In this document: in pieces, positions 39,635 to 46,641 of the stretch | How positions within the stretch are numbered: position 1 is the stretch's first letter | Layout: every line of letters starts with the position of its first letter | Assembly (NCBI RefSeq): GCF_040729435.1 | Contig: NZ_CP160398.1 | Location: forward strand, 2,852,001-2,916,000 | DNA: 64,000 bases | DNA from: Pseudomonas sp. HOU2 | Lineage (GTDB): Bacteria > Pseudomonadota > Gammaproteobacteria > Pseudomonadales > Pseudomonadaceae | Reading direction: 5' to 3' | Notes under the pieces: generated by a model | The model's database searches: none | What the model saw: only the letters and a program-made list of their open reading frames with translations | Told to the model about the DNA's origin: nothing | Translations under genes and position numbers: made by a program

Positions 39635-40831
39635 ATGTCCCTGCCTAGCCTGCGCCTCAAAGCCAACGCCGACCGTCGCCTGCGCAACGGCCACTTGTGG
39701 GTCTACAGCAACGAAATCGATGTGGCCGCCACGCCACTGCACGGCTTCAAGGCCGGCGATCAGGCAATCCTCGAAGCCGCTGGCGGCAAGCCGCTGGGCG
39801 TAGTCGCGATGAGCCCGAACAACCTGATCTGCGCGCGTCTGCTGTCACGCGACATCAAACTGGCGCTGGACAAGTCGCTGCTGGTGCACCGCCTGAACGT
39901 GGCCCTGTCGCTGCGCGAGCGCCTGTTCGACAAGCCGTTCTACCGCCTGGTCTACGGTGACTCCGACCTGCTGCCAGGCTTGGTAGTCGACCGTTTCGGC
40001 GACATCCTCGTGGTGCAGATCGCCTCGGCGACCATGGAAGCGCATAAAGATGACGTGATTGCAGCGCTGACCCAAGTGCTCAAGCCAAGCGGCATTCTGT
40101 TCAAGAACGATTCTGCCGCACGTGATGCCGAAGGCCTCAACCGCTACGTCGAAACCGTGTTCGGCCTGGTGCCGGAATGGGTCGCACTGGAAGAGAACGG
40201 CGTGAAGTTCGAAGCGCCGGTCATTGGTGGCCAGAAAACCGGCTGGTTCTACGACCACCGCATGAACCGCGCCCGCCTCGCACCTTACGCCAAAGGCAAA
40301 CGCGTCCTCGACCTCTATAGCTACATCGGTGGCTGGGGCGTGCAGGCTGCCGCGTTCGGCGCCAGCGAAGTGTTCTGCGTCGACGCATCGGGCTTCGCCC
40401 TCGACGGCGTTGAGCGTAACGCCACGCTGAACGGCTTCGCCGACAAGATGACCTGCATCGAAGGCGACGTCTTCGAAGCGCTGAAGGAACTCAAGGCCAG
40501 CGAAGAACGTTTCGACGTGATCGTTGCCGACCCGCCAGCGTTCATCAAGCGCAAGAAAGACATGAAGAATGGCGAAGGTGCCTACCGTCGTCTGAACGAG
40601 CAAGCCATGCGCCTGCTGACCAAGGACGGCATTCTGGTGAGCGCTTCGTGCTCCATGCACCTGCCGGAGGACGATCTGCAAAACATCCTGCTGACCAGCG
40701 CCCGTCACCTGGACCGCAACATCCAGATGCTCGAGCGCGGCGGTCAGGGCCCGGATCACCCGGTACACCCGGCCATCGCCGAGACCCGCTACATCAAGAG
40801 CATCACCTGCCGCCTGCTGCCGAACAGCTGA
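39635..40831 (+). CDS. rlmI: Class I SAM-dependent rRNA methyltransferase (RlmI type)
   Basis: 398 residues. N-terminal PUA domain (RLRNGHLWVYSNEIDVA), AdoMet motif VLDLYSYIGGWGVQAAAFGA, motif IV ADPPAFIKRKKDMKNG and an RCSMHL-like active segment SASCSMHL. Matches the RlmI/RlmK family of 23S rRNA m5C methyltransferases (C1962 in E. coli). Last core gene before the peptide-SagB-AurF insertion; followed by a terminator. Confidence 0.9.
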   Translation: MSLPSLRLKANADRRLRNGHLWVYSNEIDVAATPLHGFKAGDQAILEAAGGKPLGVVAMSPNNLICARLLSRDIKLALDKSLLVHRLNVALSLRERLFDKPFYRLVYGDSDLLPGLVVDRFGDILVVQIASATMEAHKDDVIAALTQVLKPSGILFKNDSAARDAEGLNRYVETVFGLVPEWVALEENGVKFEAPVIGGQKTGWFYDHRMNRARLAPYAKGKRVLDLYSYIGGWGVQAAAFGASEVFCVDASGFALDGVERNATLNGFADKMTCIEGDVFEALKELKASEERFDVIVADPPAFIKRKKDMKNGEGAYRRLNEQAMRLLTKDGILVSASCSMHLPEDDLQNILLTSARHLDRNIQMLERGGQGPDHPVHPAIAETRYIKSITCRLLPNS

Positions 40832-41042: not shown

Positions 41043-41094
41043 TTGCCAATAATTCATTACAACCTATTATTAAGTTGTCACCACGACGGTGACA
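41043..41094 (+). promoter_or_regulatory. Promoter and operator-like repeat of the peptide-SagB-AurF operon
   Basis: TTGCCA (41043-41048), 16 bases, TATTAT (41065-41070): a good sigma70 promoter. Starting at the expected transcription start is a 7-base-arm inverted repeat TGTCACC (41076-41082) / GGTGACA (41088-41094). The repeat is well placed for a repressor, or for a small 5' RNA hairpin. No regulator gene is adjacent. Confidence 0.65.
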
Positions 41095-41125
41095 TTCACT
41101 CTCAATGAACAAGGAGTTCATACTT

Positions 41126-41197
41126 ATGAAAGCAATTACTCTGGAAACCAACCAAATCGCAAACCTGGCCTTCCTGGTTGCGCCTAAAGCCCGCTAA
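41126..41197 (+). CDS. Putative 23-residue peptide, candidate precursor or leader peptide
   Basis: An ATG-to-TAA frame of 23 codons that starts MKAITLETNQ and ends LVAPKAR. AAGGAG lies nine bases before the ATG, the best ribosome site in the region. It is the first frame after the promoter and precedes a hairpin and two tailoring-type enzymes plus an exporter on the same strand. There is no Cys or Ser; two Thr, two Asn, one Gln, one Glu and two Lys are possible targets. It lacks the Glu-x3-Tyr of PqqA. It could be a modified peptide, a carrier peptide, or a translated leader that controls the hairpin. No homologue is known to me. Confidence 0.6.
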   Translation: MKAITLETNQIANLAFLVAPKAR

Positions 41198-41205
41198 GTG
41201 AGCCA

Positions 41206-41237
41206 GAACGCTGGGGAGTGCCGGCACCCCAGCGTTC
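41206..41237 (+). terminator. Intercistronic hairpin between peptide gene and SagB-type gene
   Basis: GAACGCTGGGG / CCCCAGCGTTC, perfect 11-base arms around a 10-base loop, followed by TTTCGACCCTTTT. It starts eight bases after the peptide stop, so a ribosome at the stop codon would touch it. It may partly terminate transcription or protect the 3' end of the peptide message. Confidence 0.75.
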
Positions 41238-41269
41238 TTTCGACCCTTTTCCAGAGTGATCAATACAAC

Positions 41270-42343
41270 ATGCACATCAATCCTTATTTATTCATATTGC
41301 CGCGCACACCCGGACAAATCGTCTGGAACTATAAAGATCATACCCAACATGAACTTGACCTGACTTATTCTTGTCGACTTGCACAACTTATCAATAACCC
41401 GGAACAGTTCGACAGACGCAACATAATAGACTCACAACTTCTGAACGCGGGCATATTAACCGTTGCAAAAATAGACAGTCCGCCATGGGGCTGGGATGAA
41501 TTGTCGAAGATTTATCATATCGGCACCCAGAACATTCCCTGCGAACAGATACCCCAGAATATTCAAGAGTGGTCCAGGCAATACCTGAACCATTGCAGCG
41601 CTGTGCTGACCACACCGGCACCTGCGCAAGATCGCCCGATCCAGCAAGACAAACCTCTGATCACCCTGCCCGCCTCTGCGGCCCTGACCGTCGCCAGCCT
41701 GGGCAATGTCCTGCGCCTGAGAAAAACCTGCCGCTCATTCACTGGCGCAGCGATCACCCTCAATGACGTCGGCACGCTGCTGTATCTCTCGCTGGGCTTT
41801 CTTCGCCATCGCGACAATGACCGCGACGAGAGCATCGCCGAAGGACTCGGCGCCCGTCGCAGCAGTCCTTCAGGTGGCGGGTTGAATGCCTGTGAAGGAT
41901 TTCTTCTGGCACGCAATATCGAGGGCCTGGAACCGGGCATTTACGCCTATCACCCGGCAGAACATGCGCTCAGCCGGGTCAATCCATTGCCCGAACCCGC
42001 GCTCGGCCATTTGCTGGCGGGTCAGCACTTCATCAACAATCTGCCGCTGGGTCTGTTCATCACCGCTCGTTTCGACAAGCTCTGGTGGAAGTATGAACAC
42101 TCGCGCGCCTATCGCATGGCGTTCGTCGAGGCCGGTCACTTGTCGCAGACCTTTCAACTGGTGGCCACGGCGCTGGGCCTGGGAACGTGGCTGACAGGGG
42201 CGTTTGCCGATCGTCAGGTCGAAGCCCTGCTCAAACTCGAAGGCAGCGCTGAACAACCATTGTTCTTTGTCGGCTGCGGTGCCAGTGACGGTCAGGCGAT
42301 GTGTCAGGAAATGCGCGACCTGTTGCAGGAGACGCGTCCATGA
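41270..42343 (+). CDS. SagB-type (nitroreductase-fold) flavin dehydrogenase
   Basis: 357 residues. N-terminal SagB-like region (1-140: NPYLFILPRTPGQIVWNYKDHTQHEL) followed by an FMN nitroreductase-fold domain: RKTCRSFTGAAITLNDVGTLLYLS, RRSSPSGGGLNACEGFLLARNIEGLEPGIYAYHP, YRMAFVEAGHLSQTFQLVATALGLGTW and FFVGCG. Family members oxidise azolines to azoles in RiPP pathways, but SagB-like proteins also occur outside azole clusters. No cyclodehydratase (SagC/D, YcaO) is nearby. ATG at 41270 chosen; the frame is open to a GTG at 41198, but that extension is the hairpin. Stop overlaps the next start (ATGA). Confidence 0.87.
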   Translation: MHINPYLFILPRTPGQIVWNYKDHTQHELDLTYSCRLAQLINNPEQFDRRNIIDSQLLNAGILTVAKIDSPPWGWDELSKIYHIGTQNIPCEQIPQNIQEWSRQYLNHCSAVLTTPAPAQDRPIQQDKPLITLPASAALTVASLGNVLRLRKTCRSFTGAAITLNDVGTLLYLSLGFLRHRDNDRDESIAEGLGARRSSPSGGGLNACEGFLLARNIEGLEPGIYAYHPAEHALSRVNPLPEPALGHLLAGQHFINNLPLGLFITARFDKLWWKYEHSRAYRMAFVEAGHLSQTFQLVATALGLGTWLTGAFADRQVEALLKLEGSAEQPLFFVGCGASDGQAMCQEMRDLLQETRP

Positions 42344-43317
42344 GTGCGCCAACCGCGGATCAGCCCGAAGCGCCAGAGTCCTCGGCGCTTCGATTCACCC
42401 TCGGCGATTGGGACAACCACGCTTCGGTGCGCAACAGCCGGCACGCCTACCAGTTACCCGCAGACCTGCCGTTGCAACTGCAAACGCGCTTCTGGTTTCC
42501 GCCGGCATTCCTGCCGTACCTGTCCCACCCGGCCATCGAAGCCGCAGGCAGCAGGGTCATGCATCGGCTCGCAGCCAGTCACCTGGTGCACTTTCTCGAC
42601 TACACCACGCTGCTCGAGCACCGCATCGTCAACCGCGCCGTGGAAACCATCGTCCACGGCGAGTTACCCGCATACATTCCTTCACGGATGAAAACCGCCG
42701 CGCTGCAGCTCTATACCGACGAGGGTTATCACGCGCTGTTCTCCCATCGTCTGGCCGAACAGATCGCCGAACTGCATGGTTTCACCGGTCGTCCGCAGAT
42801 ACCGCTGCGCATTACCCGCCTGACCGGTCAGATCGCCCGAACGCCGGAAAGCAAACGCCCGCTGGCATGGTTTCTGCTCGGTTTCGTTTCAGAAACCATC
42901 ATTGCCCGGGAACTGCTGGATGTGTGTCGGGAAACGCTGGTCAGCAGCGTGAATGACATGTTGCGCGACCATCTCGCTGATGAAGCGCGCCACAGCCGGT
43001 TTTTTTCCGAGGTCTTCCACTACCTCTGGTTGACCCTGAACAGCCGCCAGCGCGCCTTCGCGGCCAGAACCTTGCTGGAGACCCTGGCGACCTTCTTCGA
43101 AGTCGACGAGCAATGGCTGCACCAAAGCCTGCGCCGTGCCGGCATTGGCGAAGGCGCAATCAGGGAAATCCTCGAAAGCCTGACCAACGAACAGGCCAGC
43201 CGTGAGCGTGCCAGATCCGGAGCAACGGCTACGCTTGCTGCACTCGAAAAAGCCGGATTCTTCGCGCTACCCAACAACCGCAAACTTTTCGCCAAGGCAG
43301 GACTGATCGATGCTTGA
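42340..43317 (+). CDS. AurF-type diiron oxygenase
   Basis: 325 residues, all-helical. The seven iron ligands of the AurF N-oxygenase are matched in order and spacing: Glu93 (LLEHR), Glu128 and His131 (TDEGYH), Glu185 (SETII), His211, Glu215 and His218 (RDHLADEARHS). Spacings 35, 3, 57, 26, 4 and 3 compare with 35, 3, 60, 27, 4 and 3 in AurF. Family enzymes oxidise amines to hydroxylamines or nitro groups, and some hydroxylate carbon. Substrate unknown. ATG overlaps the SagB-type stop; its own stop lies inside the start of the MFS gene. Confidence 0.87.
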   Translation: MSAPTADQPEAPESSALRFTLGDWDNHASVRNSRHAYQLPADLPLQLQTRFWFPPAFLPYLSHPAIEAAGSRVMHRLAASHLVHFLDYTTLLEHRIVNRAVETIVHGELPAYIPSRMKTAALQLYTDEGYHALFSHRLAEQIAELHGFTGRPQIPLRITRLTGQIARTPESKRPLAWFLLGFVSETIIARELLDVCRETLVSSVNDMLRDHLADEARHSRFFSEVFHYLWLTLNSRQRAFAARTLLETLATFFEVDEQWLHQSLRRAGIGEGAIREILESLTNEQASRERARSGATATLAALEKAGFFALPNNRKLFAKAGLIDA

Positions 43318-44542
43318 AGGAAGAACAGTGGTAACGACCCGACAACGACGCGGGGCGGTCAGCCTGCTTTTGGCCATGGTGCTGCTGGGGGTGTTTCCGC
43401 TGGACGTCCTGCTGCCGTCGTTCCCGGCGCTGGCTGAACACTTCGCCAGCACTCCGACCGACATCGCCCTGTCGATCAGCCTGTTCGCGGTGGGGATTGC
43501 CTTTGCCCAACTGTTGATCGGGCCGTTGTCCGACGTTATCGGGCGCAAGGGCTTGTTGCTCGCCGGCATGGCTGTCTCGATCCTCGGCGCCATCGGTTGT
43601 GTAATGACCAGTGACTACATGCTGTTCATGACCTTTCGCATCGTGCAGGCCATCGGTTGTGGCTGTTTCGTCCTGTCACAGGCTCTGGTGCAGGATCTGT
43701 TCGAGGGCGCCGAGCGTGATCGTCTGCGGATCCTGATGGTCACGGCATCGGGGATCTTTATCTCGATCTCACCGCTGGCCGGCACCTTTCTGCAGGCGAC
43801 CCTGGGCTGGCGTGGCAGTTTCTGGCTGTTCATCGCTCTGGCAGTGGTGGTGTTGCTCAAGGCCTGGCTGTTTCTGGACGGTGGTCGGCCCGCCGTCAAA
43901 GCTACACCGCTCAACTTTCTCCGCGCCTATCGACGGGTGCTGGGGGATTTCGAGTTCGTCGGCTACTGGTTGATTTCGGCTTTCGCATTCGCCTGCCACT
44001 TCTCTTTCATCGTCATTTCGCCGCTGATCTTCATGGATCAATTGCAGCTCTCAGCCTACGACTTCTCGCTGATCCTGCTGATCTACGGTGCGGCCTATGT
44101 CACTGGCGGGATCGTCGCCACGCTGTTGAGCCGGCGAATCTCGCCCGGACAGCAAATGGTGGTCGGGCTGAGCCTGATCCTGCTGGCGGGGCTGGTGATG
44201 CTGTTCATGGCCAGGCACCTTGCGCTCTCGGCGGCCACGGTGCTGATTCCGATGTTGATCTGCACCGCCGGCACCACCATCGCACGCCCCGCAGCCACGT
44301 CGCGGGCCATGAGCCTGTTTCCCGAGAATGCCGGCACCTCGGCTTCGGCAGGCAGTACGATCATTTTCATTTGTGGTGGCTTGATCAGTGCCTTGATCAG
44401 CCTGAGCCCAAGCAACCTGCAAGCCACCCTCGGCTACTGTTTTGTCCTGCTCAGCGGCATCGCGCTGGCGTTGAACAAGCGGATCAGCCATCGCGCCAGC
44501 ATCATTGAGAACGGCGCCGTCACGCCCTCTGGCAGCGATTGA
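43310..44542 (+). CDS. Bcr/CflA-type MFS exporter
   Basis: 410 residues, 12 membrane helices. Drug:H+ antiporter features: LDVLLPSFPALAEHF after helix 1 and motif A GPLSDVIGRKGLLLAG between helices 2 and 3. Overlaps the diiron oxygenase gene by eight bases, so it belongs to the same operon and probably exports its product or gives self-protection (inference). A strand of 257 bases follows before ilvD, without a supported gene. Confidence 0.87.
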   Translation: MLEGRTVVTTRQRRGAVSLLLAMVLLGVFPLDVLLPSFPALAEHFASTPTDIALSISLFAVGIAFAQLLIGPLSDVIGRKGLLLAGMAVSILGAIGCVMTSDYMLFMTFRIVQAIGCGCFVLSQALVQDLFEGAERDRLRILMVTASGIFISISPLAGTFLQATLGWRGSFWLFIALAVVVLLKAWLFLDGGRPAVKATPLNFLRAYRRVLGDFEFVGYWLISAFAFACHFSFIVISPLIFMDQLQLSAYDFSLILLIYGAAYVTGGIVATLLSRRISPGQQMVVGLSLILLAGLVMLFMARHLALSAATVLIPMLICTAGTTIARPAATSRAMSLFPENAGTSASAGSTIIFICGGLISALISLSPSNLQATLGYCFVLLSGIALALNKRISHRASIIENGAVTPSGSD

Positions 44543-44799: not shown

Positions 44800-46641
44800 A
44801 TGCCAGATTACCGCTCGAAAACATCCACCCACGGCCGCAACATGGCCGGCGCCCGCGCACTGTGGCGTGCCACCGGGATGAAAGATGACGACTTCAAGAA
44901 GCCGATCATCGCCATTGCCAACTCCTTCACCCAGTTCGTGCCGGGCCACGTGCACCTCAAGGACCTCGGTCAACTGGTTGCCCGGGAAATCGAACGTGCC
45001 GGTGGCGTCGCGAAAGAATTCAACACCATCGCCGTGGATGACGGCATCGCCATGGGTCACGACGGCATGCTGTATTCGCTGCCGAGCCGCGAGATCATCG
45101 CCGACTCCGTCGAATACATGGTCAACGCTCACTGCGCCGACGCCATCGTCTGCATCTCCAACTGCGACAAGATCACCCCGGGCATGCTGATGGCCGCCCT
45201 GCGCCTGAACATTCCGGTGATCTTCGTCTCCGGCGGCCCGATGGAAGCCGGCAAGACCAAACTCGCTTCCCACGGCCTCGACCTCGTCGACGCCATGGTG
45301 ATCGCCGCCGACTCCAGCGCTTCTGACGAGAAAGTCGCTGAATACGAACGTAGCGCCTGCCCGACCTGCGGCTCCTGCTCCGGCATGTTCACCGCCAACT
45401 CGATGAACTGCCTGACCGAAGCCCTCGGTCTCGCACTGCCGGGCAACGGTTCGACCTTGGCCACCCACAGCGACCGCGAGCAGCTGTTCCTGCAGGCCGG
45501 CCGCACCATCGTCGAGCTGTGCAAGCGTTACTACGGCGAGAACGATGAATCGGTACTGCCGCGCAACATCGCCAACTTCAAGGCGTTCGAGAACGCGATG
45601 ATGCTCGACATCGCCATGGGCGGTTCGACCAACACCATCCTGCACTTGCTGGCTGCCGCCCAGGAAGCCGAGATCGATTTCGACCTGCGCGACATCGACC
45701 GTCTCTCGCGCAGCGTGCCGCAACTGTGCAAGGTCGCGCCGAACATCCAGAAGTACCACATGGAAGACGTGCACCGCGCTGGCGGCATCTTCAGCATCCT
45801 CGGTTCCCTGGCCCGTGGCGGCCTGCTGCACATCGACCTGCCGACCGTGCACAGCCGCAGCATGGAAGAAGCCATCGCCAAGTGGGACATTACCCAGACC
45901 ACCGACGAAGCCGTGCATCACTTCTTCAAGGCCGGCCCGGCGGGCATCCCGACCCAGACCGCTTTCAGTCAATCGACCCGTTGGGAAACCCTCGACGACG
46001 ACCGTGAAAACGGCTGCATCCGCAGCTTCGAACACGCCTATTCGAAAGAAGGCGGCCTGGCCGTGCTGTACGGCAACATCGCTCTCGACGGTTGCGTGGT
46101 GAAAACCGCCGGCGTCGACGAGTCGATCCATGTCTTCGAAGGCAACGCGAAGATCTTCGAAAGCCAGGACAGCGCCGTGCGCGGCATCCTCGCCGACGAA
46201 GTGAAGGAAGGCGACATCGTCATCATTCGCTACGAAGGCCCGAAAGGCGGCCCGGGCATGCAGGAAATGCTCTACCCGACGTCGTACCTGAAATCCAAAG
46301 GCCTGGGCAAAGCCTGTGCGTTGCTCACCGACGGGCGTTTCTCCGGCGGTACCTCCGGTCTGTCGATCGGCCACGCTTCGCCAGAGGCTGCGGCCGGCGG
46401 CGCGATCGGTCTGGTGCAGGACGGCGACAAAGTGCTGATCGACATCCCGAACCGCTCGATCAACCTGTTGGTCAGCGATGAAGAACTGGCTGCGCGCCGG
46501 GTCGAGCAGGACAAGAAAGGCTGGAAACCGGTCGAACAACGTCCACGCAAAGTGACCACCGCGCTGAAGGCCTACGCCCTGCTGGCGACCAGCGCCGACA
46601 AGGGTGCGGTGCGCAACAAGGCGATGCTCGACGGGCTGTAA
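44800..46641 (+). CDS. ilvD: Dihydroxy-acid dehydratase
   Basis: 613 residues. Converts dihydroxyisovalerate and dihydroxymethylvalerate to 2-oxo acids in Val/Ile/Leu synthesis. Fe-S cysteines in [10 protein letters not shown] (about 122) and [19 protein letters not shown] (about 190), and [21 protein letters not shown] near the C-terminus. GGAGTG is the ribosome site upstream of the ATG. A strong terminator follows the stop. Confidence 0.97.

Follow-up and report, generated by a model that had tools for sequence, protein, structure and literature searches.

The 64,000-nucleotide window analysed here comprises positions 2,852,001 to 2,916,000 of contig NZ_CP160398.1 (RefSeq assembly GCF_040729435.1) of Pseudomonas sp. 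HOU2, and all coordinates below are positions within it. The window contains a candidate biosynthetic operon of four genes, all on the + strand, which on reading of the sequence encode, in this order, a 23-residue peptide, a SagB-type dehydrogenase, an AurF-type diiron oxygenase and an exporter of the major facilitator superfamily (MFS). The SagB and AurF frames overlap by 4 nt and the AurF and MFS frames by 8 nt. An earlier note, made from the letters of this DNA alone, had described the same gene order, coordinates and overlaps, a location between rlmI and ilvD, and a short frame with a strong ribosome site at the head of the block; the present reading agrees with it in all these respects.

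The Putative Precursor Peptide Gene

The peptide gene consists of 23 codons at 41126..41197 (+ strand), from the ATG at 41126 to the stop codon at 41195-41197, and its product is MKAITLETNQIANLAFLVAPKAR. The Shine-Dalgarno sequence AAGGAG (41111..41116, + strand) is located 9 nt before the ATG, and most relatives also have a purine-rich site there. The product is divided into a leader, MKAITLETNQ, and a proposed core, IANLAFLVAPKAR, and matches no model of Pfam or NCBIfam. A profile built from 22 such peptides and run over 398 Pseudomonas genomes matches the window at E 1.9e-13 and finds 108 places in 105 of the genomes, 106 of which adjoin this SagB gene or its remnant (103 AurF-bearing loci together with L118, L122 and L040). 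The remaining two are a decayed copy in genome G308, which has lost SagB and AurF and whose peptide ends in altered sequence, and a weak second match (E 0.0085) in genome G355. SagB relatives at E 1e-10 or better are present in 122 of the 398 genomes. When 121 SagB loci were fetched from Pseudomonas genomes and short open reading frames (ORFs) were sought upstream by pattern, 118 had one of like plan; among the three missed by the pattern, L052 has a peptide beginning with MRKANLQT, L122 has one by the profile, and no peptide was found in L121, a deletion remnant. The 18 SagB genomes without the window type of peptide are seven of an AurF-less type, six of a carbamoyltransferase type, one remnant and four others, in which the sole match lies within long frames resembling MNIO-nitroreductase fusions (one fusion, L125, was verified).

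Selection was tested on 88 AurF-bearing loci with a 23-residue peptide, pooled as 83 distinct DNA versions. The ratio of nonsynonymous to synonymous variation (pN/pS) is 0.42 overall; it is lowest at residues 11-18 (0.21), followed by residues 19-23 (0.35), and highest at residues 2-10 (0.71). Ala12, Asn13 and Leu14 are invariant in all 88 peptides, while position 16 is occupied by Phe in 69 of them and by Cys in 12. Among the AurF-bearing peptides of any length (n = 103), Glu7 is found in 102, and Ile or Val at position 4 and Leu or Met at position 6 are found in all. These comparisons strongly support the view that the 23-residue ORF is a real, conserved gene travelling with SagB, and likewise that its first ~10 residues (MKxIxLE) represent a leader. 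The locus thus has what is expected of a ribosomally synthesized and post-translationally modified peptide (RiPP), a gene-encoded precursor which adjoins modifying enzymes and is under protein-level selection. The earlier note had held that a peptide not conserved beside homologous SagB-AurF pairs would count against its proposal; the search and alignment found it conserved.

The SagB-Type Dehydrogenase

The second gene (41270..42343, + strand) encodes a SagB-type flavin mononucleotide (FMN) dehydrogenase of 357 aa, with matches above the cut-offs to PF00881 (6.1e-19) and TIGR03605 (129 bits, cut-off 78.4), which bear out its earlier assignment. The Lys274-Tyr275 pair of SagB/McbC-type dehydrogenases (42089..42094, + strand), whose role in these enzymes is treated in passages of PMC11055893, is invariant in alignments of 23 and of 36 relatives. 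Approximately residues 1-85 (41270..41524, + strand) are predicted to form a winged-helix domain like the RiPP recognition element (RRE), and the 19 best structural matches of the model of this domain are all RiPP enzymes. It is therefore strongly supported, by sequence and by predicted structure, that the N-terminal domain is RRE-like and of the leader-binding type, and that the C-terminal domain is a McbC/ThcOx-type flavin dehydrogenase; the enzyme would bring with it the domain by which RiPP leaders are recognized. PF00881 is the sole Pfam family above cut-off, so the protein is not an MNIO fused to a nitroreductase, nor is it a member of the peptide maturation dehydrogenases of TIGR04511, for which it scores 159.6 bits against a curated cut-off of 240. 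About a dozen Pseudomonas loci (L098, L107, L113-L122 and L273) have a disrupted or deleted SagB, so the pathway has been lost repeatedly.

The AurF-Type Oxygenase and the Exporter

The third gene (42340..43317, + strand) encodes an AurF-type diiron oxygenase of 325 aa (PF11583, 8.6e-21, 74.8 versus 29.6 bits). Seven residues, E93, E128, H131, E185, H211, E215 and H218, are invariant in 100 of 100 aligned AurF-type sequences and align with those residues of the AurF structure 3chh which we take to be its metal ligands; together with the PF11583 score they place the enzyme in the AurF-type family. However, it is not an equivalog of AurF (4-aminobenzoate N-oxygenase), scoring 66.7 bits against the cut-off of 620 for NF045603. 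An AurF search from a distant member gave 27 proteins, and all those that are named (13 of the 27) are from Pseudomonas. The fourth gene (43310..44542, + strand) encodes a Bcr/CflA-like MFS exporter of 410 aa (PF07690, 1.2e-40), whose best NCBIfam match, Bcr/CflA TIGR00710, is at 184.6 bits below the cut-off of 200.9. The AurF-type and MFS assignments of the earlier note are thereby upheld, but AurF is not a constant partner of SagB: 14 of the 117 loci scored lack it, a second, contig-end copy in G189 (L040) having been dropped from this count. Where AurF is present, Asn13 stands within the motif [AE]N[LMWF] in 103 of 103 loci; where AurF is absent, the motif is missing in 13 of 14, the exception being the deletion remnant L118. 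Examples of AurF-less peptides are MKTVILESKELAAFSLIGMPK and MAKIKLEHEVSAGHHTMLGTLK. A relative of the MFS gene (49-58% identity) lies beside rlmI in 3 of 20 SagB-less Pseudomonas genomes (L252, L261 and L264), and no peptide, SagB or AurF gene was found next to it there.

The Hairpin between the Peptide and SagB Genes

Between the peptide stop and the SagB start, an RNA hairpin (41205..41238, + strand) is predicted with -25.5 kcal/mol and a z-score of -4.2; the earlier note does not mention it. Covariation was examined in 14 relatives chosen from 118 with the peptide: 91% of cells pair, both sides are changed in 6 of 12 pairs, and the covariation score is 0.322, compared with 0.182 for shuffles (0 of 500) and 0.034-0.216 for slid controls. 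Hairpins of distant relatives have z-scores of -6.4 (Neobacillus, L172), -2.5 (L046) and -1.9 (L041), and for L041 11 of 200 shuffles fold equally well. A search of Rfam assigned the hairpin to no known family; the three matches it gave all fell below threshold and lie on the opposite strand and within SagB. A standard terminator after the peptide was considered and rejected, as there is no T run and the site is absent from the terminator scan. The missing T run makes a role in processing or stability more probable for the hairpin than one in termination.

The Wider Family

Sequence comparison indicates that the relatives keep an MKxIxLE-like leader together with SagB, and that the tailoring enzyme, exporter and core vary. 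The tailoring enzyme is AurF, a carbamoyltransferase, a methyltransferase, or none. Longer peptides are found in seven Pseudomonas loci (L048, L049, L051, L052, L053, L119 and L120). L048 and L051 continue with a carbamoyltransferase (PF02543/PF16861) and an MFS gene, L051 having also a tetratricopeptide repeat (TPR)-methyltransferase by Pfam, and the layout of L049, L052 and L053 resembles these by eye. Outside the genus, the precursor of Paraburkholderia L179 has two leader-core units (...LEPTLSFQSNDAYNKPVG... twice) and that of Photorhabdus L218 has one, both with a carbamoyltransferase by Pfam; Trinickia L185 and a metagenome-assembled genome, L225, are like them by eye. In L160 the core FCALMPVM occurs in two copies beside a LysE exporter, in Neobacillus L172 the peptide MKKIQLESKNFCALLPVIVRK with a GTG start accompanies AzlC/AzlD, and L230 has a Vut_1 transporter. 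Repeated or exchangeable cores, a feature of RiPPs, are thus present in the relatives L160 and L179 and not in the window.

Of a set of 80 SagB loci, 29 were examined for peptides, 15 of them non-Pseudomonas and 14 among the 65 from Pseudomonas. A peptide is found in 14 of the 14 Pseudomonas and 7 of the 15 non-Pseudomonas loci; no recognisable peptide was found in the other eight of the latter, all of Holosporales type. Full-length SagB is rare outside Pseudomonas: the 390 genomes searched in the order yielded two such matches from outside the genus, and the 398 of the phylum sample yielded one. L054, a 1-kb stretch without a gene, was left out of the counts.

Proposed Pathway and Alternatives

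The best-supported account, and quite a likely one, is a RiPP pathway made up of the precursor, the RRE-SagB and an optional second enzyme. The alternating Ile4/Leu6 strand of the leader would dock at the RRE sheet's edge, delivering residues 11-23 to the FMN of SagB, which would then remove two hydrogens from a core residue (Cα/Cβ desaturation, -2 Da) and make no azoles. Desaturation is somewhat probable; it is preferred to azoles because a YcaO partner is lacking nearby, because the window core is free of Cys, Ser and Thr, and because PflD makes dehydroPhe and AlbAB desaturates Phe and Leu. By conservation, residue 14 (Leu in the window; Leu, Met, Phe, Trp or His in relatives) is the best guess for the desaturated position, though on balance a doubtful one. 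The AurF-type enzyme would then oxidise at or beside Asn13 (+16 or +14 Da), a site proposed because Asn13 is retained alongside AurF and disappears without it, and to which we give an even chance. What weighs against this link is that on a tree of 109 SagB proteins (SagB of less than 320 residues and loci without a peptide call, except L052, being left out) AurF needs only three changes, so that the pattern in the sequences, though clean, appears to reflect few independent events. A general protease encoded elsewhere would release the core, the MFS protein would export it, and the hairpin would probably raise the amount of precursor above that of the enzymes or stabilise its message. The LysE and AzlCD exporters of relatives point, for those forms, to a product that is small and resembles an amino acid; the window product could equally well be a hydrophobic oligopeptide.

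The earlier note had left two options, a peptide-derived metabolite and a small-molecule pathway, and it is the former that conservation, the linkage with SagB, the leader-binding-type domain and the tandem cores favour. The N-oxygenation that it considered is possible. If SagB, AurF and the MFS protein instead converted a free metabolite to a small molecule, the peptide would be a small protein in its own right, such as a subunit or a membrane peptide. AurF-type enzymes of known function presumably act on small amines, and some SagB relatives have no peptide upstream, but the leader, unlike the remainder of the peptide, is kept with SagB in different genera, and this reading does not account for tandem cores or an RRE-like domain, which makes it very improbable. 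Slightly less probable again is a role of the short ORF as a regulatory leader, by which ribosome stalling or attenuation with the hairpin would control SagB, AurF and the exporter acting on another substrate. In its favour, regulatory leaders also take the form of a conserved small ORF with a strong, covarying hairpin between it and the enzyme genes, and the operon does include an exporter. Nevertheless, the hairpin has no T run, SagB carries the RRE-like domain, the cores are in tandem in L160 and L179 with precursors reaching 58 residues, the core changes along with the tailoring enzyme, and all three loci reduced to the MFS gene lack the peptide.

SagB-type dehydrogenases are known to assist YcaO enzymes. 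A linear azol(in)e-containing peptide (LAP) or thiazole/oxazole-modified microcin (TOMM) pathway has also to be weighed, in which a YcaO cyclodehydratase encoded elsewhere would act and SagB would oxidise azoline to azole. The SagB fold and the Lys-Tyr pair do match azoline dehydrogenases, and the genome has one YcaO gene; this, however, is a single 736-codon frame 2.3 Mb away, and no YcaO is found among the scanned operon genes and flanks. Moreover, residues 11-23 of the window peptide contain no Cys, Ser or Thr, and at residue 16 of the 23-residue peptides Phe prevails over Cys. This is the least probable of the three. As the earlier note had stated, neither YcaO nor radical SAM (S-adenosylmethionine) genes are found among the scanned operon genes. 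A peptide cofactor of the pyrroloquinoline quinone (PQQ) type, which is made from a Glu/Tyr pair of PqqA with the radical SAM enzyme PqqE, was rejected, since the peptide has no Tyr and the scanned genes include no radical SAM enzyme.

Comparison with Known Systems

The nearest characterised YcaO-free relative is PflD, which according to the sections of PMC12636437 consulted makes dehydroPhe; they also describe YcaO-free SagB enzymes as rare, mostly uncharacterised and possibly makers of dehydroamino acids. Desaturation of Phe and Leu by AlbAB is described in passages of PMC11055893. As outlined in parts of PMC12636437 and, for Os17, PMC7726476, the pfl/pos RiPP clusters share with the window the genus, a ribosomal precursor, and a SagB/nitroreductase-type domain acting without YcaO and with a second oxygenase alongside; the nitroreductase domain of the PflD-type architecture is 35% identical to the window SagB. 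By the same outlines, their own features are a precursor of at least 85 residues, a nitrile-hydratase-type leader, an MNIO fusion and a HEXXH hydroxylase, whereas the window has a 23-residue precursor, an RRE-SagB and a separate AurF-type enzyme. The azoline dehydrogenases ThcOx, BmdC and McbC have the Lys-Tyr pair in common with the window SagB, and BmdC, and ThcOx in part, also its two-domain plan (RRE-like plus FMN oxidase), but they follow heterocyclisation by YcaO or a nonribosomal peptide synthetase (NRPS), a partner which the operon lacks. The Xanthomonadaceae systems of what we take to be the families TIGR04509/04510/04511 likewise have a SagB-related putative peptide-maturation dehydrogenase, with, by eye, a large cyclase-like gene upstream that is absent at this locus. 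The p-aminobenzoate N-oxygenase AurF shares the PF11583 fold and the seven aligned residues with the window enzyme, which differs in its peptide context. Finally, the gvg clusters for 4-formylaminooxyvinylglycine in Pseudomonas, in the portions of PMC8064604 and PMC8067088 describing them, have a required small ORF, a carbamoyltransferase, LysE exporters and an amino-acid-sized product, a description that parallels those members of the present family which have a carbamoyltransferase or LysE; those portions make no mention of SagB, unlike this family.

No description of an operon with a 23-residue precursor, a stand-alone RRE-SagB and AurF was found in the open-licence literature of PubMed Central, nor any paper there with any of five peptide sequence strings. 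RiPPs and SagB enzymes are known, but this combination is new relative to that literature. It is possible, if on balance doubtful, that the family forms a separate RiPP class. Its marks would be a short precursor of the MKxIxLE type (~21-58 residues) and an RRE-SagB that stands alone, with no YcaO; the second enzyme (AurF-type diiron oxygenase, carbamoyltransferase or TPR-methyltransferase) would be exchangeable, the exporters would be of amino-acid or small-peptide type, and the class would range over Pseudomonas, Sinobacterium, Paraburkholderia, Trinickia, Photorhabdus and Neobacillus. In that case, the window would contain the first diiron enzyme of the AurF type to act on a ribosomal peptide, and that peptide may be a scaffold whose cleavage yields a desaturated, N- or C-oxygenated product the size of an amino acid. 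The locus offers a minimal test, consisting of a 23-residue peptide, a single enzyme that has a leader-binding domain of its own, and a diiron oxygenase that is optional. Furthermore, the operon is common across Pseudomonas species (about a quarter of the 398 genomes), and natural versions lack or swap the second enzyme, so that what YcaO-free SagB enzymes do, and what AurF-type enzymes do to peptides, would become directly testable. The precursor genes of the family are too short for usual gene finding.

Genomic Site

The operon is flanked by an RlmI-type SAM methyltransferase gene (39635-40831, PF10672) and ilvD (44800-46641, PF00920). The earlier note had judged from the A/T-rich 5' part that the block looks inserted, but the G + C content of this part is 0.448 in the window and on average 0.449 over 88 relative loci, and the rlmI-ilvD interval houses 67 of 87 longer relatives with the peptide. 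A recent insertion, inferred from A/T-richness, is not supported in view of this equal G + C content and recurrent position, and was rejected; on the same sequence grounds the block appears as an old resident of a favoured site, with no recent insertion visible. Among the 20 SagB-less Pseudomonas genomes, the gap from rlmI to the ilvD start is 262-350 nt in four and 620-1350 nt in six, and ilvD was not found within 1.5 kb of rlmI in ten. No tRNA or tmRNA was found in the window. Carriage on plasmids was considered and rejected: SagB relatives occur in 8 of 72,556 plasmid records, none reaching 80% query cover. In four loci a second copy of the rlmI 3' end (~codons 348-398, 55-85% amino-acid identity) flanks the operon, downstream of MFS in L102, L105 and L122 and upstream of the peptide in L101, as if the operon had been exchanged between species via homology at rlmI.

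Upstream of the peptide, a promoter-like site (41043..41070, + strand; TTGCCA, 16 nt, TATTAT) has 10 of 12 consensus bases. Three such sites are found in the stretch versus 1.5 expected from shuffles, so their number is not above chance; TTG...CTATTAT is kept across an alignment of 28 selected loci.

Other SagB-Type Loci

The endosymbiont genomes of Candidatus Odyssella (L173, L176 and L193) and Holosporales (L186 and L188) contain two to three copies of the SagB family, with no recognisable precursor upstream of them, and in L186 a POT-family transporter adjoins SagB. A conserved 31-residue peptide (MAKKV.NAPKLT.AAGTQTVFFSQGMHYNKR) precedes another SagB-type gene in L168 and L169, which belong to one family of the phylum sample, and this is probably a further short-precursor SagB system. 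In addition, unannotated short ORFs precede SagB in L164 (MAQPTKVTRTFPSMSKR) and in plasmid pHL2708X3 of Maritalea myrionectae (L272:3130-3210, MKKVTRTFPNKEKLASFVLDVNGVC), where an MFS gene overlaps SagB. KVTRTFP is common to the two, and from position only they may be further forms of the family.

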